This document shows, in pieces, positions 14,046-27,791 of a stretch of DNA of 64,000 nt; positions within the stretch are counted from its first letter, which is position 1, and the number at the start of each line of letters is the position of its first letter. The stretch covers positions 310,001 to 374,000 of the forward strand of contig CANNCL010000001.1 of the NCBI GenBank assembly GCA_947503155.1, given 5' to 3'. Below the pieces are notes generated by a model. The model saw only the letters and a list, made by a program, of their open reading frames with translations, was not told where the DNA came from and did no database searches. Source of the DNA: an uncultured Erythrobacter sp. (GTDB lineage Bacteria > Pseudomonadota > Alphaproteobacteria > Sphingomonadales > Sphingomonadaceae). The translations under genes and the position numbers were made by a program.

Positions 14046-14786
14046 GTGGCCTTGAAAATCTCTATCAGCAAACGTCTCGGAATGATCAGCATGTCAGCTG
14101 CTGTCGCACTTGCGGGATGCGCATCGACACCTGAACCAGTAATTGGCGCAGCCGCTACTCAGCCGCGCACCGATTTGGGTCAGGCGAATTATAGCCATGT
14201 GCCTGCAACCACTTATGCGCTGCGGCCATCGGACAAGGTTTCGGTGAATGTGTTCCGTGAACCTGAACTTTCCGTAGAGAATGTCCGCCTTGGCGTTGAC
14301 GGCGCGGTTTCGCTTCCGATGCTTGGATCAATCCCTGCAGCAGGGATGACCACCAAACAATTTGAGCAAGATGTTGCTCGGCGTTTGCTGGCAGCTGGCC
14401 TGCGCACTCCGATGGTCAGCATTAACATTTCCGAATATGCGTCGCATCTTGTGACCGTCGAAGGCGCGGTTGAAGATCCCGGTGTTTATGCATTCCAACC
14501 GGGCTCACGCTTGTCATCGGCTATCGCCATGGCTGACGGTCCAACAAACGTCGCCAACGAACAGCAAATCGCGGTATTCCGTGAAAGTCCGCAAGGCGTA
14601 CTGATTGCGAAATTTGACTATGGTCAGATCAGCCAAGGCACGATGCTCGACCCGATCTTGCAGCCTGGTGACCGCCTCGTGATGGGCACTGATGGTTTGT
14701 CGGTGTTCTATCAAAACCTTCTTCAGGCATTGCCGGCATTTGGCGTGTTTGGAGTTGCTGCGATCAACAGCAGCAGCAGCAATTAA
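14046..14786 (+). CDS. Polysaccharide export lipoprotein (Wza-like)
   Basis: Lipobox ALAGCAS; Poly_export/SLBB-like YALRPSDKVSVNVFREPELSVENVRLGVDGAVSLPMLGSIPAAGMT. Confidence 0.93.
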   Translation: MALKISISKRLGMISMSAAVALAGCASTPEPVIGAAATQPRTDLGQANYSHVPATTYALRPSDKVSVNVFREPELSVENVRLGVDGAVSLPMLGSIPAAGMTTKQFEQDVARRLLAAGLRTPMVSINISEYASHLVTVEGAVEDPGVYAFQPGSRLSSAIAMADGPTNVANEQQIAVFRESPQGVLIAKFDYGQISQGTMLDPILQPGDRLVMGTDGLSVFYQNLLQALPAFGVFGVAAINSSSSN

Positions 14787-14798
14787 AAATCTGAACCA

Positions 14799-17012
14799 AT
14801 GAACGAACGCTCAATTATTGACCCGTCCGAACCGGATGGCCGTGGCACTTGGCTTGAAACCTATCTGCCTGAGAACGAACTGGCACGCCCCAATCAGGGT
14901 GTTCAGCTCATCAGCCTTGCGACTGTCCGCGGCGTCCTGTTCCGGCAGAGGTGGCTGTTTGCGGGTGTAATCCTTGCTGCACTCACAGTCGGCTTGATCG
15001 TCACTTTGCTCGCGACGCCAATGTATCAGGCGACAGCAAAGGTCAGTGTAGAGCCCTATGGTGCGTTCATTCTTGAAGGTCAGGATGTCGAGCAAGGCAT
15101 CGCCAGCAACCAAGTCGGCGATTATCTTGCGACGAAGGTTGAGCTGATCGGCAGCCGCAGCTTGGCTGAGGTCGTTGTCGCTGACCGCCAACTTGGCGAG
15201 CGTTACGATTTGCTGGGCCAGAATATCGACGAAAGCCGGTCACCTGACATGACCGACGAACAATGGCTAGAAACCAAGAATTCGATTGCTGCGTCAATCC
15301 TTGTGGGCGGTGTCACAGCAGAAGTTCCCGATATTAGCTGGGTGATCCCGATCGGCTTCCGCTCTGACAATCCCGCATTGGCCGCCGAAATGGCGAATGC
15401 TTATGCAGACGCCTTTATTTCGTCAGATTCCCGCGATTCAATCGAGGGCAATGAATATGCAATCGAATATTTGCGCGATCAGATCGAAGTGGTTCGCGGA
15501 CGGCTAGAAGAAGCCGAGCGGGATACCAATGCCTATGCCCGCAACAGCGGCATCATTGTCCAACCGTCGACTGGCGAAGAAGGCGGAGCCGGCACAACAC
15601 TGACGAATTCAAGTCTCGCCAACATCAGCCAACGCTTTGCTGATGCGCGTGCGAACCGTATTGCTGCGGAACAAAAATGGCGGTCGATTCAGAACTTACC
15701 GGCGGCCCAATTGCCAGAGGTCCAGAACAATCCTGTCCTTCAAGGACTCGTCACTGATCGCACAGGCAAGCTCGCGGAACTCGCGGAACTGCGCCAACGT
15801 TACAGCGATGAATTTCCGCAGATCACCAACTTGCTTGCGCAAATCGAAATCCTCGACACGCAAATTGAACGCAGCAGCGCCGACGTCAAAGCGACCGTGC
15901 GCAACGCCTATATCGTCGCTCGCAATCAAGAGCAGGCGCTTCAAGGCGAACTGGGCTCGCTCTCGAACGATTCGCTCGCAGAACAAGATGAGATGGTTCA
16001 GCTTACCGTGCTTGAGCGTGAAGCTGAGGCCCTGCGTCAGCAATTGCGCTCGCTGCTTGAACGGTTCAACCAGATTAGCAGTGCTGCGAACGTAAACAGC
16101 GGCACTATGACGAAAATCGAAGGCGCGCTGGTTCCCGGATCGCCCTATGCACCGAGCTTGCTGCAAAATTTAGGGCTCGCTTTGGTTCTAGGCATCGGCC
16201 TTGCTGCCGGCCTCGCAGTCTTGCGTGAAATGTTCGACGACCGCGTCCGGTCGCTGGATGAAGTTGAGCAGAAAATCGATCTGCCACTCATCGGCCACAC
16301 GCCGCATGTCAGCGAAAAAGACATCGATGTGGAAAGCTCGAACAACTTTACATCTTTGATGGAGGCCTATGCCTCGATCAAAGCGGCAATCGAGTTCTCG
16401 CTCCCACGCAACCGTAATGTCCTGCAACTGACCAGCACCCATGAATCTGAGGGTAAATCGACAACCGCCGTCGTCTTGGCTGAGCTCTTTGCGCGTTCGG
16501 GTCGAAAGACACTCTTGATTGACGCCGATTTGCGTCGTCCGTCAGTGGCACGGTTGCTCGAACTGGAACGCCCTAAGATCGGCCTCATCGAAGTGCTGCT
16601 GGGTCATGCCAAGCTTGAGGACGCAATCGTCAAAGGCGTTCACGACAATCTCGAAGTTCTGCCAATCGGTGCCATTCCGCCAAATCCTACGGAAATTTTG
16701 GCGGGAGATGAGATCGCGGAATTCATTGCGAAGTACCGCGAAGAATACTCGCTCATCATCTTCGATTCTTGCCCAGTCTTGGGCCTTGCTGATGCGCCGC
16801 TGCTCGCTCGCCTTATGGATGGAACAATCTTCGTTCTCGAAGCCAACAAAGTTCCGTTTGCTCAGGCGCGTAATGCGGTCAAACGCCTCAGAAGCTCTGG
16901 CGGCAACGTCCTTGGTTTGATTCTCACCAAATACCGCGCTTTGGAAGCGGGCCAAAGTTATGGCTATCAGTACAGCTATTACGAATATGGCGGCTCAAAC
17001 GCCAATCGGTGA
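14799..17012 (+). CDS. Polysaccharide co-polymerase / BY-kinase (Wzc-like)
   Basis: Wzz domain with two TMs, BY-kinase Walker motifs (HESEGKSTTAVVLAE; LLIDADLRRPS), C-terminal Tyr-rich tail GYQYSYYEYG. Confidence 0.95.
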   Translation: MNERSIIDPSEPDGRGTWLETYLPENELARPNQGVQLISLATVRGVLFRQRWLFAGVILAALTVGLIVTLLATPMYQATAKVSVEPYGAFILEGQDVEQGIASNQVGDYLATKVELIGSRSLAEVVVADRQLGERYDLLGQNIDESRSPDMTDEQWLETKNSIAASILVGGVTAEVPDISWVIPIGFRSDNPALAAEMANAYADAFISSDSRDSIEGNEYAIEYLRDQIEVVRGRLEEAERDTNAYARNSGIIVQPSTGEEGGAGTTLTNSSLANISQRFADARANRIAAEQKWRSIQNLPAAQLPEVQNNPVLQGLVTDRTGKLAELAELRQRYSDEFPQITNLLAQIEILDTQIERSSADVKATVRNAYIVARNQEQALQGELGSLSNDSLAEQDEMVQLTVLEREAEALRQQLRSLLERFNQISSAANVNSGTMTKIEGALVPGSPYAPSLLQNLGLALVLGIGLAAGLAVLREMFDDRVRSLDEVEQKIDLPLIGHTPHVSEKDIDVESSNNFTSLMEAYASIKAAIEFSLPRNRNVLQLTSTHESEGKSTTAVVLAELFARSGRKTLLIDADLRRPSVARLLELERPKIGLIEVLLGHAKLEDAIVKGVHDNLEVLPIGAIPPNPTEILAGDEIAEFIAKYREEYSLIIFDSCPVLGLADAPLLARLMDGTIFVLEANKVPFAQARNAVKRLRSSGGNVLGLILTKYRALEAGQSYGYQYSYYEYGGSNANR

Positions 17013-18998: not shown

Positions 18999-20378
18999 TT
19001 ACCTGCGGCGCGGTGGGAGCAGTCGATTTTCCTCGGTTTGTCCGGGGGCTTCGCGAGAGGAGACGACCCGCCGTATTGCGGTGCGCGGGATCTCTCGTTT
19101 GAGGTTGACCCCAAGGCTGACCGAAATACCCACCAAGACAAAAAACCAGACGAGCACCGATAGCCAAAGCGAAACCGAGACCGCGCCTAGTGCGAATACG
19201 GCCAGCGAAATTGCCAGCCCGCGCATCAATCGCGCATCTTGCTTACGATATGTCGATGACTTGATCGCCAGCAATATGATTCCCGCGACGGTCGCACCGA
19301 TGAGCAGCATCGACGCCGGAATTCCAAACCGGAGCGCCATGATCAGCCAGAAATGGTCAAACGAACCCGAATGCATCCACGAAGGCCGAACCCAGTCAGC
19401 ATAACCGAGGCCAAACCAAGGGTGTTGAGCGATATTCTCTGTGCCGTAATTCCAGATCAAGACACGGTTATAGGCTGAGGTCGTATTGAGCGAGGCATAG
19501 CGGATCATCAGGCCATAAAAACCCGAGTTACTCGTCATCTCGACCGTGGTAAAAAGGATGCCAGATGCAAACAGGAATATGCTCCAGGTCACATTGCTGA
19601 TCTTTTCGGTGAGCCAGTCATAGCACCATAGCAGGCCGCCCATGAGTAGCCCGAGTAGAGCGGCGGAACTCATCGAAAAAAAGCCGCCAAAAGAGGCCGC
19701 TATGCCCAAAGTACGCGGCCAACCGCGCAGCCCGGATGCGAGGTAGATGGGCAGGAAACTGGACAGAAAAATGCCCGCCAGAATTGGGTGAGGAAATGGC
19801 CCGGTGCCGCGCATCAGGCCAAGCCGAATGTCATCGCGCAAGCGGTAAGGGGAGCCGGTGATGTCCGCGGCCACGCGTTGCAGCACCCGTGTATGGGTGA
19901 CTGCCTCTTGCACCACGAACAAGCTCATCAGGGCAATCCCAGGGGCGACTAGGACCAAGAAAAGCCGGAGATCTCGGGGCGTTTGAATAGCAGCGCGTGC
20001 CAAGAAATAGGCGAACGCGATGTCCAAAGTATGCGCTCCACCTTGGTTCATCGCGGTCGAGATTTCGCCGCTCGTCATATAGGAAGCGAGCCAAATCCAA
20101 GCCGCAGCAAGCGCCACCAGCAAATCGGGCCAGACAAACCGCAAACGTCCGCCGACTGCGCTAGAAAGCAAGTACAAGGTCGCAGGGAACATGAAAATTC
20201 GGTACGGCGGCAGGTACAAACCAACCGCGCGGACGTGGAGCTGTTCTGGAATGAAGAGCAAATATATTAGTGTGGCGGCCAAATAGACCGGCACCAAGCT
20301 GCGCGATTGCGCGCTAACTGGCCGTATAGCTCTACGTGGAGCGGGTGCAGGACGGTAGGTTGTTGCCACGCAGGTCAA
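18999..20378 (-). CDS. O-antigen/EPS polymerase-like membrane protein (Wzy-like)
   Basis: Multi-TM 459-aa protein with RVLIWNYGTENIAQHPWFGLGYADWVRPSWMHSGSFDHFWL. Confidence 0.82.
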   Translation of the reverse strand: MTCVATTYRPAPAPRRAIRPVSAQSRSLVPVYLAATLIYLLFIPEQLHVRAVGLYLPPYRIFMFPATLYLLSSAVGGRLRFVWPDLLVALAAAWIWLASYMTSGEISTAMNQGGAHTLDIAFAYFLARAAIQTPRDLRLFLVLVAPGIALMSLFVVQEAVTHTRVLQRVAADITGSPYRLRDDIRLGLMRGTGPFPHPILAGIFLSSFLPIYLASGLRGWPRTLGIAASFGGFFSMSSAALLGLLMGGLLWCYDWLTEKISNVTWSIFLFASGILFTTVEMTSNSGFYGLMIRYASLNTTSAYNRVLIWNYGTENIAQHPWFGLGYADWVRPSWMHSGSFDHFWLIMALRFGIPASMLLIGATVAGIILLAIKSSTYRKQDARLMRGLAISLAVFALGAVSVSLWLSVLVWFFVLVGISVSLGVNLKREIPRTAIRRVVSSREAPGQTEENRLLPPRRR

Positions 20379-20568
20379 TTAGACTTTTTTGCACAGCAAT
20401 CAAAGCCGCAATTTATGAAGCGAGGCGGTAAGTGTGTGAGATTGGGATTTGCGCGGTAATAGATGAAAACGCCGCAACAAATGGCTGGTTCAACCGAGAA
20501 AACACTTTCCTATATCTAACCTTTTTGGTTCACTGTCCTAGTTCCTTTCATCAAATAGGATTTTCATT

Positions 20569-20832
20569 ATGAGTGACCCATTCGGTTCTGCCAGTGACAG
20601 TGTCGTCGCCCCAGCCCGCCATGCCTTCGCGATTACGCCTAGCAACAACGACCTCGCCAGTTTCACCAAGGCAATTTATGTTGGAACCGGTGGGACTATC
20701 GTGCTGCGCCCTATTGGATCTGACGCAGACGTGACCTTCACCAATGTTCAAGATGGGTCCATTCTCGACCTGCGTTGCAAGGCGATTCGCGCCACCGGAA
20801 CGACCGCTTCTGGCATCGTGGGACTTGCCTAA
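20569..20832 (+). CDS. Spike-base-protein-like (RCAP_rcc01079/GhsA-like) small protein
   Basis: MSDPFGSASDSVVAPARHAFAITPSNNDLASFTKAIYVGTGGTIVLRP...VTFTNVQDGSILDLRCKAIRATGTTASGIVGLA resembles GTA/phage head-spike base proteins (family recognised from memory). Confidence 0.7.
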   Translation: MSDPFGSASDSVVAPARHAFAITPSNNDLASFTKAIYVGTGGTIVLRPIGSDADVTFTNVQDGSILDLRCKAIRATGTTASGIVGLA

Positions 20833-22391
20833 TGGCAGGGTTTGGCTTTGGCTATGCGCGCAGCGGCCGCCGAGCGCGTAGTAGCGGCTCAACCGGCGGC
20901 CCCGGACCGGGTCCATCCACCAGCGAAACAATCGGTGCCTTCACTCGCCATCAATTCGGCGCCGGTCTGCCTGTATCCGCAAGTGCGATCATTGCGGGAG
21001 ATGCTGGCGATCACTGGACCGTTTCTGGCGGCCGCCTTTACCCAAGCGCCGCCGGTGATGCAGCCGATTTGAATGCGGGGCCTTACGCATTGGAGTTCAA
21101 TGACGGTTCGAGCATAAACGTTACCATTGAACCTGACACTTGGGATGTAACCGACCAAAGCGAATGGGATTTTGTCGCACGGCAATCTTCGGCCACATTG
21201 GCAGGCAAAACCATCGCTCTCAGGAACACCGGTACTTTAACGCTCGGGATAACCGGCGGCTTTGGCACACCGTTCCGGCGTGCCGATCTGCGCGATGGGT
21301 CGAACAACCCATTGGTCGTCAAAGGGCGGTTGGGCGAGGTCGGCGAATGGGATAACTATTGCGAGATCGACCGCGTGCAATTCATGCGCGGTGCGCGCGG
21401 TTTGACATTCCGTCATCTAAAAACCGAAGCCACAAACGTCGCAAAATTTACGATTGTTGGTGAGGGTTCGAACAATGCCGACGACATCACAATCGACGAT
21501 TGCTGGGTTAGAGGCGAAGTGGGTGACCCGAATGGCGACTATTCTTCGTCTTCCAACTACCCCAACCTTAACCGCGACCTGATCAACACCACTGGTTCCG
21601 CGATTGGTGCAGTTGGCAACGTCACAGTGACAAATTGCAAAATTGAATGGGGCGACAGTCTCGTCAATATCCGGGTCGACCGGCCCGGAGGCCAATCAAT
21701 TATCACAGGCAATGAATGCGCCTATTTCTACGGTGATGCGATTGCGGTTACGATGGCGCCAGCCAACCCATTGCCAACCACAATCAGCGACAATTTTATC
21801 CATGACACCGTTGGTCTTGCAACCGACAGCGCCAACCCGCACGTCGACGCATTGCGTCTTCAGGGCAGTACAACGGCTGTGGCGGATTGGGATAACATCG
21901 TGATCGAACGCAATGTCATTCTTCAAGGGAATGCACGCGGCGATATGCAGGCGATCTTCCTCGATGATATGAAGACCAGCAATGGTGATAGCGGGCGCTA
22001 TTTTGAAGCGGTGATCCGTAACAATATCATCGCTATCGATTTTTCGGTGCACGGGATCACCGTGATCCAAGCCAAGGATTGCCTAGTCGAAAACAACACC
22101 GTCATGTCATGGGGTCAGGGCTCCAACAACTCGCCTTCGATCTTCATCGCGAGCAGCGGCCTAACCACGGCCACCAGCGGCGGGGGCAACACAGTCAGAG
22201 ATTGTATCGCTGATAATATCGGTGACAGTTTGGGCGCAAGTTCGCAGAGCAACAATTTCGAGGCCGGCCTGAATGGTTCTGTGATTGCTTACTCCGAGCT
22301 TTTCGATGGCCCGACATATGCGCCAGAGACCGTTGCCGAAGCCAAGGTCTTGCTCAATCCCAAGGTTTCAGCGGGAGCAATTATTCCCTGA
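20832..22391 (+). CDS. Right-handed parallel beta-helix protein (putative spike/pectate-lyase-like)
   Basis: Repeated N/D-V-I/L-x-N-N beta-helix coils (VIRNNIIAIDFSVHGITVIQAKDCLVENNTVMSWG); start codon overlaps upstream stop (TAATG); no signal peptide apparent. Confidence 0.8.
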   Translation: MAGFGFGYARSGRRARSSGSTGGPGPGPSTSETIGAFTRHQFGAGLPVSASAIIAGDAGDHWTVSGGRLYPSAAGDAADLNAGPYALEFNDGSSINVTIEPDTWDVTDQSEWDFVARQSSATLAGKTIALRNTGTLTLGITGGFGTPFRRADLRDGSNNPLVVKGRLGEVGEWDNYCEIDRVQFMRGARGLTFRHLKTEATNVAKFTIVGEGSNNADDITIDDCWVRGEVGDPNGDYSSSSNYPNLNRDLINTTGSAIGAVGNVTVTNCKIEWGDSLVNIRVDRPGGQSIITGNECAYFYGDAIAVTMAPANPLPTTISDNFIHDTVGLATDSANPHVDALRLQGSTTAVADWDNIVIERNVILQGNARGDMQAIFLDDMKTSNGDSGRYFEAVIRNNIIAIDFSVHGITVIQAKDCLVENNTVMSWGQGSNNSPSIFIASSGLTTATSGGGNTVRDCIADNIGDSLGASSQSNNFEAGLNGSVIAYSELFDGPTYAPETVAEAKVLLNPKVSAGAIIP

Positions 22392-22406: not shown

Positions 22407-23195
22407 CTAAAGGTCTAGTTCACGCACCAATTCGCGCGGATTAACTTGCGAATTGGTTGCCCGGGCGAGCCTGCGTTTAAGCGAGCGCCATAAGCGCAAG
22501 CGGGCGCGCAGCAACGGGAACACAGACCGAGTAAGCGGAACCGTCAATGTCGGCACAGGCAGAAAGTCCTGCCATTTCTGACGCATGTAAAACCATGCAT
22601 CGGAGTACCCACCGCTATAGGTGCGAACGGGCTTGCTGTTATGGATTGCGGGGATGTCGGCGACATAGGCCTTCATTCCCGCTTTTCGTGCGGAAAGCAC
22701 AATGTCCGCTGCGTAGAGATGAAAGCCCGGTAGCGCCTCGTCAAAGCGAAGGCCGCTGCCGCGCCGCAGGATAATCACAAACTCATCGATACAACGGGTC
22801 TCGACCGGGGCATCGAAGCGCGCGCCCAGCCTAAGGCTAAGGCCCGAGGACCATGCATGACCAGAATACTCACCGGTATCATCAATGCCCCACGCCCCGA
22901 TTACGGCCCAATCCGGGTCATGTGCCTCGATGGCAGCGACGGACTTGGCCAATGCCTCGCCCCAATTATCCGGCAGAAACACGTCTTGATGCGCGAACAC
23001 GATGATACCCGCTGAAGTGTCATCGATCCCCTCATTGTAAGCCTGCGATGCCGTTACCGCGCCGCGATAACAGTTCAGCTCGACTTGGCCTTCAGCGATC
23101 AATGCCGACCGCATCAGATTGTTTTGCAGGACTTCCTCGTCATTGACCGCCGCGACGATATGAATATCTGCGATGAGATCACGCGCTTCCGTCAC
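22407..23195 (-). CDS. Glycosyltransferase-like protein
   Basis: IHIVAAVNDEEVLQNNLMRS ... AYNEGIDDTSAGIIVFAHQDVFLPDNW (GT2-like fold). Confidence 0.78.
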   Translation of the reverse strand: MTEARDLIADIHIVAAVNDEEVLQNNLMRSALIAEGQVELNCYRGAVTASQAYNEGIDDTSAGIIVFAHQDVFLPDNWGEALAKSVAAIEAHDPDWAVIGAWGIDDTGEYSGHAWSSGLSLRLGARFDAPVETRCIDEFVIILRRGSGLRFDEALPGFHLYAADIVLSARKAGMKAYVADIPAIHNSKPVRTYSGGYSDAWFYMRQKWQDFLPVPTLTVPLTRSVFPLLRARLRLWRSLKRRLARATNSQVNPRELVRELDL

Positions 23196-23884
23196 GTCTT
23201 GCGCCCTTCGATGCAGACCTGTCGCACCGTCAGGTGTCGCAAGCGGCCAAGCGTCAACAGATTGAACGCCCGCGCACCCGGCCCTGGTTCTGCCATCGCG
23301 CGGACAGTGTCCACCTGTATGCCTGCTTCTTCGAACATTCGGCGATAGCTACCGGCGGTAAACCAACGCAAATGCGTGCGGTCCATCACGCCTGTTTCGG
23401 TGAGTTCCCAGCGGTCCTTTAGCAGCCCGCTGAGCACAGAAAACTGTGCCACATTCGGAGAGCTGGCCAGCACGGTAGCGCCCGGCTTCAACTTAGCGGC
23501 GACCCGTTCAACAACCGCCCATGGATCGATAAGATGCTCCAACACCTCGCTCATCAATACGGCATCGAATGATTGATCTGCCCACGGCAATTCAAGCTGC
23601 TCAACATTCCCCTCAAGCACTTCGGTCAGCCGAGTACGGGCAACCTTTGCGGCTTGCGGCGCGATTTCGACGCCGTGATAGCTTTCGCAAAGACCAGCCG
23701 CGATGGCGGCCGCTCCAGTCTCGCCCGCGCCGCAGCCAATCTCCAAAATACGCGCCGATCCGCTTGGCGAAAGCAAGTCCAGAAAGTCCCGCCGCACGCC
23801 GGCAAAATAGCCGTCCGACTTGCTGCCATACGCTTGCAGACCGAGATCGTCGCCGACTGCCGAATTGGAATGTTTGTCTGTCAT
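23192..23884 (-). CDS. SAM-dependent class I methyltransferase
   Basis: RILEIGCGAGETGAAAIA ... FDAVLMSEVLEHLIDPW. Confidence 0.9.
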   Translation of the reverse strand: MTDKHSNSAVGDDLGLQAYGSKSDGYFAGVRRDFLDLLSPSGSARILEIGCGAGETGAAAIAAGLCESYHGVEIAPQAAKVARTRLTEVLEGNVEQLELPWADQSFDAVLMSEVLEHLIDPWAVVERVAAKLKPGATVLASSPNVAQFSVLSGLLKDRWELTETGVMDRTHLRWFTAGSYRRMFEEAGIQVDTVRAMAEPGPGARAFNLLTLGRLRHLTVRQVCIEGRKT

Positions 23885-25332
23885 CTTTGGTGTCTGTAAA
23901 CTTTCTGAGCGGCCATAACCAAGAGCGCCTTCAACCTTTCGCGCAAGTCCTTGGAGACCAACAAAGCAGTGATAACGCCGGGCGCGCTTATGACGACCGC
24001 CAAGATGAATGTCACCAGCAGGTTGGCAAACGGATCAATGCTGGAATTCACCGCGATCAGTACGGCCGCCAAAACTGCAAATACCAACCCATAGGTTAGA
24101 CATGCGGACGCAGCGGCCGGCGCTCTGCGGCTGACTTGGAAAAGGGCCAAAAATGTCGCCGCGACATCTCCTGCGCACATGCAGGCGGCCACCCAGACGA
24201 TGCCCTGGCCTGATGAAAGCGCGAAATACGCACCAATGAGGCCCGTCACCCGAAAGATGTTCGCCGTTAGAATATCGCTGGTGCCGCCTCGACTAAGCGA
24301 AATGACCACGCACCATGCGCGCAGCACCGTCGCAGCCGCTAGGATAGAGAGAAATGTCACCAGCAATGGCGGGGTCACGAAACCCGCCCCAAAGAGCAGG
24401 AAAACCACCGGCGCACCCAGCGTGGCCAGCGGGAAAAGCACGCCAGACAGCAGCAACAAACATGCAGCACCTGTTGTTCGGCATCTTTCCTTATACAGCT
24501 CTGAATTGTCGCGCGCCTCAGAAAGCAGGGGCAAAAACAGATTGCCGCATAGCCGCGCAAAGAACACGCTTGCCCCGCCGGTCAACGCAGCAACAGCGGC
24601 ATAGCCAGCAAGGTCGAGCATCCCGCCCATCGTGCCGATCACAATGCGGTCACCTTGGGTCGCCAGAAAGATCACAATCCCGTTGAGTAATAATGGCCAG
24701 CCGAAGGTAAAAACGGCTCTCGCTGCTATGTTGTCAAACCCCAACCGATACGGCGTCCTTGCAAGAATATGCGACAGAGCCACCGATATGACCGAGGTGG
24801 CTACGCAACCAAAAGCAATCGCTACGAAATTCTCAGTCGCGACCGCCAATGCCACTGTCAAAAGAACCCCCGGCAACAATCCGCCCAACTGCATTTTGAC
24901 ATAGGCACCAAAATTCATCTGCCGCTGCTGAGCGAGCGGGTCGAGGTGACGAAAACCTTCGATAACCGGAATGATGGCGGCGCAGGCGTAGAACCAGCCC
25001 AGCTCTGGATTGCCAAATTGCCCTGCGATCCAATCCGAAAACAGAAATATGGCGGCGCCCATCAACACCCCTCGTGCGAGCAGCACCGTCGCCATTGTCG
25101 GCATAGCGGACGCGACATCGCCATCGCGGGCCTGAATGAGGTATTTCTCAATCCCAAGGTCACTGATCAGCGCAAAAGTGCTGACCACGAGCAAAAACGT
25201 GACGCTGATCCCGAAATATTCGGGTCCAAGGAACCGCGCGACGAGCAATACGCGCAGAAACAGCAAAGCGTGCTCACCCACATAGCCAAGGCCGAGCGTC
25301 GAGCTTGCTTTCAAGAACCGGCCTTTTGCCAC
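23881..25332 (-). CDS. Oligosaccharide flippase (Wzx/MOP superfamily)
   Basis: Multi-TM protein, LGLGYVGEHALLFLRVLLVARFLGPEYFGISVTFLLV. Confidence 0.88.
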   Translation of the reverse strand: MAKGRFLKASSTLGLGYVGEHALLFLRVLLVARFLGPEYFGISVTFLLVVSTFALISDLGIEKYLIQARDGDVASAMPTMATVLLARGVLMGAAIFLFSDWIAGQFGNPELGWFYACAAIIPVIEGFRHLDPLAQQRQMNFGAYVKMQLGGLLPGVLLTVALAVATENFVAIAFGCVATSVISVALSHILARTPYRLGFDNIAARAVFTFGWPLLLNGIVIFLATQGDRIVIGTMGGMLDLAGYAAVAALTGGASVFFARLCGNLFLPLLSEARDNSELYKERCRTTGAACLLLLSGVLFPLATLGAPVVFLLFGAGFVTPPLLVTFLSILAAATVLRAWCVVISLSRGGTSDILTANIFRVTGLIGAYFALSSGQGIVWVAACMCAGDVAATFLALFQVSRRAPAAASACLTYGLVFAVLAAVLIAVNSSIDPFANLLVTFILAVVISAPGVITALLVSKDLRERLKALLVMAAQKVYRHQR

Positions 25333-25336
25333 GTTT

Positions 25337-26593
25337 CTACCCTGCCCTCTGCCGGGTCAGCAATCTGCGCAAAGTGCCGAGCATACTGCGCAGGCTTTCT
25401 TTCACGCCGAGCATGCGCGTATTGCGCGCCAGCTCCAAATTCTCAAAACGAGGCCGCTGCCGTCCGACCATTGCCATCGCCGCCAATCGCGGCAGGACCA
25501 ACCCTTTGCGCTTGGCCTGGAATGGCTGCATGTGCGTTATGGCATCGGTAGAAAGAGGCTCGGTCAGGATAGCCCCGCTCTCCATCGCGCGCATCAGCGC
25601 AGCTTCGCCTTTTGCGGTCCGCGTCAGAACGATGCTGCGGCCCTCCTGCTCATCGAATAATGGCTCACCATTCTCATCGCAGTGCCAGCCATCAGCGCAC
25701 ACGATGTCAGCGAATTCTCCGATACCGTCGGGGCAAATTTTGCAGCGGAACTGAAGGTGACGGTTGAGAATGTTGCCCCAGCTTGTGTCGTAATCCATCC
25801 TGAAACTGCGACCGTCCGCCAATTGCGCAGTCGCAAATCCGGGCCAGCCGTCCCCGCGATAGCGAAACGCAGCAATCTCGCTTTCATCCTCAACGCCCAT
25901 TTCTGCGAGCAAAGCCGATGTGCCGCGATAGCTGGGAACGCCAGCACACATAAAGGCGAGCATATAGGGCACTTTTTCGTCCACCCGCGCGTCATGCCGG
26001 GCCAGTTGGCGCAGGCCAGCAACGTCGCAAGGCTTGCCCACAAACGCAAAGCGCCCCGGCGCATTCAAGCGAGAAGCAATATCTTCAAGCGGCGAAGACG
26101 GCGCATAACGCGATCCTGCTGCATGAAACACATCATCGCGGCCGGTGCTGATCGTTAGCGCGTTGCGTACCGGCGAGTCTGGAGAGACCGCAGTTTGCAC
26201 TACATAGTCGATTTCGCCAGTGGCCAGCAGATGAGTCAATATCGCCGATAATCCGCCGCCCGACGAAGCATTCTGGCGAAGCTCAGCATCGCTGCTCCAC
26301 CCCAGCCGCGCGGTAATAAGCGGGCCCCAAACAGGATGATACTCCGCCTCAAAACTCTCCGGCTCGTGGCGAATATTCGCCCCCGGGCACACGGCGTCGA
26401 TCACTGCTGCTTGGTTATGCGGAATCGCTCGGACCGCTTCTGGTCGCCGATATCCATCCGCCGTATCGCGCATTACGATTGCGGGTTCAGCGCCCTCTGC
26501 GCCCTCTGCGCCCTCTGCGCCCTTTCCAATGCCCGCACACAGGCCGCAACCTGAACACAATCCGTTGGCTTTGATCGCTTCAATATCAAGCAT
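25337..26593 (-). CDS. Coenzyme F420 hydrogenase/dehydrogenase beta-subunit-like Fe-S protein
   Basis: NGLCSGCGLCAGIG Fe-S motif; C-terminal FrhB-like region; start at MLDIEAIK overlapping the pyruvyltransferase. Confidence 0.85.
   Translation of the reverse strand: MLDIEAIKANGLCSGCGLCAGIGKGAEGAEGAEGAEPAIVMRDTADGYRRPEAVRAIPHNQAAVIDAVCPGANIRHEPESFEAEYHPVWGPLITARLGWSSDAELRQNASSGGGLSAILTHLLATGEIDYVVQTAVSPDSPVRNALTISTGRDDVFHAAGSRYAPSSPLEDIASRLNAPGRFAFVGKPCDVAGLRQLARHDARVDEKVPYMLAFMCAGVPSYRGTSALLAEMGVEDESEIAAFRYRGDGWPGFATAQLADGRSFRMDYDTSWGNILNRHLQFRCKICPDGIGEFADIVCADGWHCDENGEPLFDEQEGRSIVLTRTAKGEAALMRAMESGAILTEPLSTDAITHMQPFQAKRKGLVLPRLAAMAMVGRQRPRFENLELARNTRMLGVKESLRSMLGTLRRLLTRQRAG
26492..26527 (-). 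repeat. 9-bp tandem repeat encoding (GAE)n
   Basis: gccctctgc x3 + gccctttcc. Confidence 0.95.
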
Positions 26594-27791
26594 GACCCGC
26601 GACCAAATCCGCGATCGCGCCGTCCAAAAATGCTGTGTAATTCCCCAATCTTCGCTGGGCTTCGGCGTTAGCGGCGACAGCCTGAGCGCGCAGATTTGGC
26701 AAATCGGCCAGCGCTGCGTCAAAGCGCGTCAGCACGGCATCATTGCTTTCGCTCGTCAGGTCAGCGTTCCACCCATAACCAAGGGAATCGAACAAGCCGC
26801 TGAACTTGCGGCTATACCCAAGCGGCACGACCGCCGTGCCAGAAGAGATCGCAGCAATTGTCGAATGCATCCGGCTGCCTGCAAACAAATCAAGCCCGGC
26901 AATATAGCTTTTCGCCTGAGACGGCCCGGAAAAACGCGGCGGCAGAACAGCGTTCGGCACACGCTTTTTCAATTCTTCGGCAAGCGCGTAATCGTCCTCA
27001 TACGGCGTCGCGGCGGCCAAGACATGCGGAACAAGGTGCAGCTCAGCGCGCGGCTCATTCGCCACACGCTCAATCAGGCTGTCGACCAAGGCCGGGTAGT
27101 CCACCGTCAATTTGATCCGATCGCTGGCGGCAATATCGCGGCGATACAGCAGAGCGGAGATGTTCAGGCCGACTTTGATCGGACCCTTGGCGAGATCGCG
27201 GCTTTGTTTGTCAGCCGCCGCCTCGAACGGCAATGCGAAGGCGACATCTGTTGTAAGCGCCGATTTGCCCTTCATTCCCAAAGTTTCGAGCACAGAAAGC
27301 GATTTTTCATCGCGGGCGAAAATTCGGCTGGCCATGTTCATCACGCCGACCGCTGCGTGCCGGGCAATGCCGGTGTGAAAAGGGCCGATTGTCTGGGGGC
27401 TTAGAATCAAGGGGCCTTTGCTGCGCTGTGCAGCAATTTTTGTCCCGATTATCAGCCAAAAACGGCGGGCAGCATAAATATCCGAAAAACTATCGCCGCC
27501 GCCAATATCGAACACAATATCACAGCGTTTAAGCTGGCGATGCAGGTTGGACACCGGGTTCGCCAGCGCCTTATATCCGACATTCTCAAAGTCGTTTTCG
27601 AACGCGATTTCATGGCTGTAATCAAACGCACCGCGCACGCCCATAAGGTGAAAAATGGGCCTATGTCCGGCTTTTTCTACGGCCGCGCCAATCAAATTGG
27701 CATTGGCCACCGTCAGCGCCCCCACCCCGAGGTTCTCTGACAAAAAAGAATGCCACAAAAGGCCGATATGTAAGGGGGGCAGATCGTTCAT
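26586..27791 (-). CDS. Polysaccharide pyruvyl transferase family protein
   Basis: Start HIGLLWHSFLSENLGVGALTVANANLI and late GSRMHSTIAAISSGTAVVPLGYSRKFSGLF. Confidence 0.88.
   Translation of the reverse strand: MNDLPPLHIGLLWHSFLSENLGVGALTVANANLIGAAVEKAGHRPIFHLMGVRGAFDYSHEIAFENDFENVGYKALANPVSNLHRQLKRCDIVFDIGGGDSFSDIYAARRFWLIIGTKIAAQRSKGPLILSPQTIGPFHTGIARHAAVGVMNMASRIFARDEKSLSVLETLGMKGKSALTTDVAFALPFEAAADKQSRDLAKGPIKVGLNISALLYRRDIAASDRIKLTVDYPALVDSLIERVANEPRAELHLVPHVLAAATPYEDDYALAEELKKRVPNAVLPPRFSGPSQAKSYIAGLDLFAGSRMHSTIAAISSGTAVVPLGYSRKFSGLFDSLGYGWNADLTSESNDAVLTRFDAALADLPNLRAQAVAANAEAQRRLGNYTAFLDGAIADLVAGHA

Follow-up and report, generated by a model that had tools for sequence, protein, structure and literature searches.

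Gene pair and genomic setting

The window (the whole 64-kb stretch of DNA analysed here; its genome is referred to as G000) contains a two-gene unit on the plus strand, an 87-aa base ORF at 20569-20832 and a 519-aa fiber ORF at 20832-22391. The base stop and the fiber start overlap as TAATG at 20830-20834, so the genes are coupled. A gene transfer agent (GTA) is a domesticated virus with which bacteria send DNA to their kin. A sequence-only reading had taken the pair for a GTA- or phage-like spike module in an EPS locus, and the coordinates, strand and coupling that it gave were borne out, as were the flanks that it named, a minus-strand Wzy gene and a glycosyltransferase gene. Past the glycosyltransferase gene come a methyltransferase gene and then the Wzx, FrhB, pyruvyltransferase and Rml genes. 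Twelve GTA marker families searched across the 64-kb window gave no matches, in agreement with the earlier statement that no other phage or GTA genes lie nearby. The features of the locus are:

14046-17012, plus strand: Wza and Wzc, the export/copolymerase genes in this EPS locus (ORFs, marker matches)
about 18999-20378, minus strand: Wzy polymerase (Wzy_C, PF04932), divergent neighbour upstream of the base
20505-20514, plus strand: element CTTTCCTATA, one substitution from the consensus CTTTCCTACA, lying about 60 bp ahead of the start codon of the base
20518-20530, no strand assigned: palindrome AACC-N5-GGTT beside the element, also present in EPS-type and holin upstream regions
20569-20832, plus strand: head spike base protein (RCAP_Rcc01079 / GhsA family), 87 aa (NF048002, PDB 6tb9_E3, structure model)
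20832-22391, plus strand: head spike fiber, 519 aa, with a plausible right-handed beta-helix body (TAATG coupling, N-terminal anchor)
20832-20858, plus strand: fiber N-terminal anchor MAGFGFGYA (hydrophobic-Gly-hydrophobic pattern)
22407-23195, minus strand: glycosyltransferase (PF13712), convergent neighbour downstream of the fiber
23881-25332, minus strand: Wzx flippase (PF13440)
25337-27791, minus strand: FrhB-like protein and polysaccharide pyruvyltransferase (PF04432, PF04230)

Spike base and fiber

The base scored 102.2 bits against NF048002, the RCAP_Rcc01079 family, where the cut-off is 28, with residues 3-87 aligned to positions 1-85 of 85. Its sequence also matched the spike base of the Rhodobacter capsulatus GTA (RcGTA; PDB 6tb9) with an E-value of 3e-9 and 39.9 bits. 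The base is thus a genuine member of the family and the assignment is no chance match. A structure model with a pLDDT of 89.4 had 6tb9 as its top PDB match in Foldseek (TM 0.81-0.84, E 1.5e-6) and recovered the jelly-roll fold of the RcGTA spike base. The likeness of the 87-aa protein to rcc01079, proposed from the letters alone, therefore held in sequence family and in fold. As in RcGTA, the base would form jelly-roll pentamers that attach to capsid vertices by their N-termini. Phages encode homologous bases as well, as judged by sequence or fold matches to Carin1 (8cjz) and to the RcapNL tail fiber protein.

The fiber starts with MAGFGFGYA, which resembles the peptide that anchors the RcGTA head fiber in the base pentamer. 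In RcGTA, the N-terminal hydrophobic-Gly peptide of the fiber occupies five pockets of that pentamer (PMC7296036), and the window base would likewise hold one fiber through its hydrophobic-Gly-hydrophobic-Gly peptide. A hydrophobic-Gly-hydrophobic N-terminus was found in 51 of 66 fibers from EPS loci of relatives (EPS-type loci, defined below) and in 84 of 754 other predicted proteins.

The body of the window fiber had no match in Pfam, NCBIfam, PHROG or PDB sequences. Its model was of low confidence (pLDDT 43.5) and built on two sequences only. The top PDB matches of the model were nearly all right-handed beta-helix proteins, with E-values of 0.02 or worse. The right-handed beta-helix described earlier is consequently a plausible but weak assignment, favoured by the fold matches and accompanied by no Pfam match. 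By eye, the fiber has no hydrophobic N-terminal stretch, which accords with the earlier remark that it lacks a signal peptide. With neither such a stretch nor a Pfam family in the window fiber, a secreted EPS lyase or hydrolase was set aside. Among relatives, the fiber bodies that did match Pfam contained beta-helix, GDSL/SGNH-like or Ig-like domains, and many fibers matched none. Fiber bodies split into many unrelated families, whereas the bases remain alignable.

Location of the pair among relatives

The spike base was present in 54 of 301 genomes of the same family. Forty loci from this set, together with 80 named loci found by scanning genome-wide, gave 111 distinct loci, the window included. 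Marker genes placed 66 of these in Wzx/Wzy EPS loci (EPS-type), 32 inside GTA clusters and 13 elsewhere, and no locus of the 111 carried both marker sets. The EPS placement of the pair recurs across many genera, so the location with EPS genes that was first read from the window is no accident. GTA-located pairs had the order MCP-base-fiber-g6. In 13 EPS-type relatives, a GTA cluster at another genomic site ran unbroken from terS through the late tail genes, and its MCP and g6 matches were about 100-300 bases apart, leaving no space for spikes; these are GTA clusters without spikes, of the kind that the sequence-only reading had proposed to look for in the genome of the window. The base gene was usually single per genome.

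A tree of the bases, which rests on few columns, had nine location changes for EPS and five for GTA, compared with about 35 and 28 in shuffles; EPS-located and GTA-located bases were largely distinct lineages in it. Related fiber bodies occurred in both homes (L034, L035 and L042 with L037, L052 and L152). Such sharing is evidence of movement, or of shared ancestry, between EPS- and GTA-located pairs.

The GTA capsid gene was detected in 19 of 26 EPS-type genomes and in 168 of 259 genomes without the base (p 0.52, not significant). Five of the seven EPS-type genomes without the capsid bear GTA deletion scars or remnants. A detectable base was absent from most GTA-bearing relatives in the family. 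Because the capsid is not enriched in EPS-type genomes and most GTA-bearing relatives have no base, head spikes are optional among these relatives. GTA-bearing genomes without a spike base would make particles either without head spikes or with unrelated ones.

A few relatives have base copies outside both GTA and EPS markers, for example L063 and L126. Sphingobium sp. SYK-6 and its relatives (L048/L110, L066/L118) have the pair and the upstream element without EPS or GTA markers, adjoining a conserved gene block (families f32-f36) that in other genera borders the GTA cluster. In SYK-6 (G146), the GTA capsid gene lies away from the pair.

A promoter element shared with the GTA holin

GTAGGA/TCCTAC was found upstream of 65 of the 66 EPS-located pairs, mostly as CTTTCCTACA near -60, and an exact AACC-N5-GGTT in 10 of the 66 upstream regions. 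Across 1.3 Mb of EPS loci, CTTTCCTACA had six copies at other places. The element was absent upstream of in-cluster pairs and from the stretches around GTA clusters, so it is not the main cluster promoter. The sequence GTTC-N7-GTTC, which we take to be the alphaproteobacterial LexA box, was near the spike promoter in 23 of the 66 EPS-type loci (e.g., L033, L035, L096, L136, L160, and L170). Such sites would link spike expression to DNA damage.

Genome-wide, G000 contains 12 copies of the 10-mer, against three of a reversed control; many of the 12, which lie inside genes or far from them, are probably chance occurrences. One copy precedes a PF11351 GTA_holin_3TM protein (102 bits) and another a PF20057 DUF6456 protein (132 bits). 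The holin was followed in 30 genomes, and its start could be determined in 24. The element was at -53 to -77 upstream of it in 22 of the 24, G000 included, and AACC-N5-GGTT followed just downstream in 12 genomes, again including G000. At -90 to -40 of other genes in the fetched loci, the element occurred in 0 of 806 cases (Fisher p 2e-41 for holin vs. control genes, a nominal value that overstates independence, as the genomes are related). We infer from this sharing with a GTA lysis gene that the spike pair belongs to the late GTA regulon and would be expressed along with the other late genes.

In R. capsulatus, GafA and CtrA jointly activate the head spike, tail fiber and lysis genes, and homologs of GafA bear the DUF6456 annotation (PMC9638019). 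CTTTCCTACA was found upstream of a DUF6456 protein (GafA-type domain) at L224, L235 and L190, in G000, G182 and G043. This protein may be a sphingomonad GTA regulator that controls itself. A short helix-turn-helix-like family without a Pfam match follows CTTTCCTACA in three genomes (L226, L202, and L247) and is possibly a further late GTA gene.

Covariation of the fiber with EPS genes

Across EPS-type loci, the similarity of fiber bodies was predicted by Wzx/Wzy similarity after Wzc and/or Wza were removed (p 0.0006-0.002), and Wzc/Wza added nothing significant once Wzx or Wzy was known (p 0.08 or more). With Wzc and the base both removed, the fiber still tracked Wzx (p 0.003) and Wzy (p 0.016). 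These thresholded and regression tests were chosen after rank Mantel tests across the EPS-type loci had been seen to be weak or null, with fiber vs. Wzy not significant; the signal resides in close pairs. Base similarity also tracked Wzy, so linkage contributes to the covariation; some of the association between fiber and EPS genes could arise because they share a locus.

The window itself is one clear instance. Among 401 genomes, only G049 has a close relative of its fiber (56% identity), and the only close relative of its Wzx is in G049 too (normalised score 0.61, next 0.09). The FrhB-like and pyruvyltransferase genes are also part of the G049 cassette (gene order of L032), and the nearest relatives of the window Wza, Wzc and Rml genes are in other genomes. 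The covariation expected from co-evolution of particle tropism with capsule type, as earlier proposed, is thus seen between fiber and Wzx/Wzy beyond Wza/Wzc (p about 0.001); the fiber would bind this EPS, and linkage may explain part of the signal.

Loss of the GTA cluster in the window genome

Targeted searches, on which all genome-wide statements rest, found the window base to be the only base in G000 and detected no GTA capsid and, by Pfam, no HK97 capsid. They recovered no functional RcGTA-type GTA, which would have its capsid, portal and tail genes together in a head-tail cluster. PF13547 (GTA_TIM) was tried as a GTA marker and misses sphingomonad GTAs; its absence from G000 was dropped as evidence. 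At about 460100-461400 of contig C1, terS, a terL fragment (residues 15-169) and a DUF2793 remnant, derived from the last gene of the GTA cluster, are joined directly. The GTA leftovers of G000 are terS, the terL stump, the DUF2793 remnant, the holin, the DUF6456 gene and the spike pair. An internal deletion has removed the head-tail cluster and left the spike pair behind; since the cluster is a deletion scar, the pair is orphaned and serves no particle of its own. The sequence-only reading had implied a particle made by this genome, and that part did not stand. A full prophage or GTA cluster with its own spikes, which together with a lack of association with EPS loci would have told against that reading, was also not found by the targeted searches.

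Comparable scars or remnants were found in G043, G081, G104, G290 and G295. The junctions of G000 and G081 fall at nearly the same point, running from terL GPQHSHA to DUF2793 GQAQKE despite a DNA identity of only 68%, and terL of G104 is broken in the same codon region, which suggests a recurrent breakpoint in the three deletions. Large internal GTA deletions were seen at L074:100-1404, L093:1107-2338, L094, L095, L089 and L090, where terS and part of terL (or more) are fused to later genes. Because the same-genus genomes G123, G182, G225 and G262 retain capsid-bearing clusters, the loss in G000 looks lineage-specific. Intact spike ORFs persist despite cluster deletion in G000, G043, G081, G104 and G290. 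In G000 the cluster may have been lost so recently that the spike has had no time to decay, and the orphan pair may be a relic or have a second use.

Interpretation of the spike pair

We consider it very likely that the pair is an alphaproteobacterial GTA head spike that is kept in an EPS locus, is driven by a late GTA promoter and was orphaned in G000 by deletion of the cluster. Most sphingomonads with a pair outside the cluster keep it among the Wzx/Wzy genes for the polysaccharide that is the most likely target of the fiber, and a shared locus combined with a late GTA promoter would let the spike and the surface sugar change together. Several observations count against this explanation: the window copy of the element deviates from the consensus at one position, EPS-type genomes are not enriched for the GTA capsid, most GTA-bearing relatives have no detectable base, and the rank Mantel tests of fiber vs. 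Wzy were not significant.

The persistence of intact spike ORFs in five genomes that have lost the cluster would also be expected if base pentamer and beta-helix fiber had been exapted as a surface or EPS-tailoring complex that serves the host in EPS modification or biofilm release, with no particle involved. The GDSL/SGNH-like hydrolase or beta-helix domains of some fibers fit such a role, as does the report that the RcGTA tailspike degrades biofilm (PMC13420450). However, the window fiber has no signal peptide, the promoter element is common to the pair and the GTA holin, and most EPS-type genomes still have the GTA cluster; the survival of the ORFs in G000 may simply reflect recent loss. 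We regard exaptation as improbable, though for the orphan copy in G000 the alternative given by the sequence-only reading, a repurposed EPS-modifying enzyme, may apply. Far less probable still is that the pair is a remnant or cargo of an unrelated prophage that uses this spike fold, as phages RcapNL and Carin1 do. Homologous bases do occur in phages, and a few relatives have bases in loci without GTA or EPS markers, but targeted searches of G000 found neither an HK97 capsid match nor a second base, and no phage structural genes lie near the pair. Moreover, the EPS-locus placement is conserved across many genera with a single shared promoter element, and EPS-located copies group together in the base tree with few changes. 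On these grounds an unrelated prophage origin was set aside.

A GTA head spike is compatible with a further alternative that concerns the recognition step only, namely that the covariation reflects hitchhiking with EPS cassettes and no sugar specificity. The base, which is not expected to touch sugar, tracks Wzy too, as hitchhiking would predict. Yet the fiber still follows Wzx and Wzy once the base is accounted for, its body falls into unrelated families whereas bases stay alignable, and the spikes of R. capsulatus bind capsule (PMC10218006). Hitchhiking as the whole explanation seems rather unlikely.

Comparison with known systems and significance

Spike genes of R. capsulatus lie beside capsule genes and are co-regulated with them (PMC10218006), so co-location and co-regulation of spike and capsule are already established, for this one species. 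The window pair resembles RcGTA GhsA/GhsB (rcc01079/rcc01080) in having a homologous base predicted to fold alike, a fiber gene coupled to it and a hydrophobic-Gly anchor (PMC7296036), in its ectopic site beside capsule genes (PMC10218006) and in the co-regulation with GTA lysis genes reported there (PMC9638019). It differs in its fiber body, which is unrelated as far as tested (a probable beta-helix of 519 aa, compared with a 325-aa protein modelled as lectin-like), in its place inside a sphingomonad Wzx/Wzy locus and in the deletion of its own GTA cluster, and we found no description of the CTTTCCTACA element for R. capsulatus. The in-cluster spikes of sphingomonads (MCP-base-fiber-g6) share the base family, the coupling and some related fiber bodies; they differ in location and in having no CTTTCCTACA upstream. 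Phage bases (Carin1 8cjz, RcapNL) have the same fold or belong to the same sequence family but are encoded in phage genomes, and there are no phage genes at the window pair. Overall, the earlier idea stands as a GTA spike with a recurrent home in EPS loci, fails for a particle of its own genome and is of a kind already known in R. capsulatus. The open-access literature searched gave no report of spike genes located in the EPS loci of sphingomonads, nor of the shared element, the covariation or spikes orphaned by GTA deletion.

When the genes for a spike and for its likely receptor share a locus, particle and receptor can stay matched by simple means, and the arrangement yields directly testable fiber-EPS pairings. 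CTTTCCTACA provides a sequence tag for finding more late GTA genes in sphingomonads. The repeated head-tail deletions that leave spike, holin and a possible regulator capture natural stages of GTA loss. Such loss has been suggested to be a sign of cheater lineages that make no particles (PMC10883770). We tentatively suggest, as a possibility well short of the confidence placed in the spike itself, that GTA tropism in sphingomonads is a swappable cassette and that lineages which delete the cluster while keeping EPS and spike genes are non-producing recipients, that is, cheaters. If the cassette reading is true, exchange of a capsule locus would also swap the spike that recognises that capsule. 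The arrangement bears on how GTAs stay confined to kin and on how they are lost.
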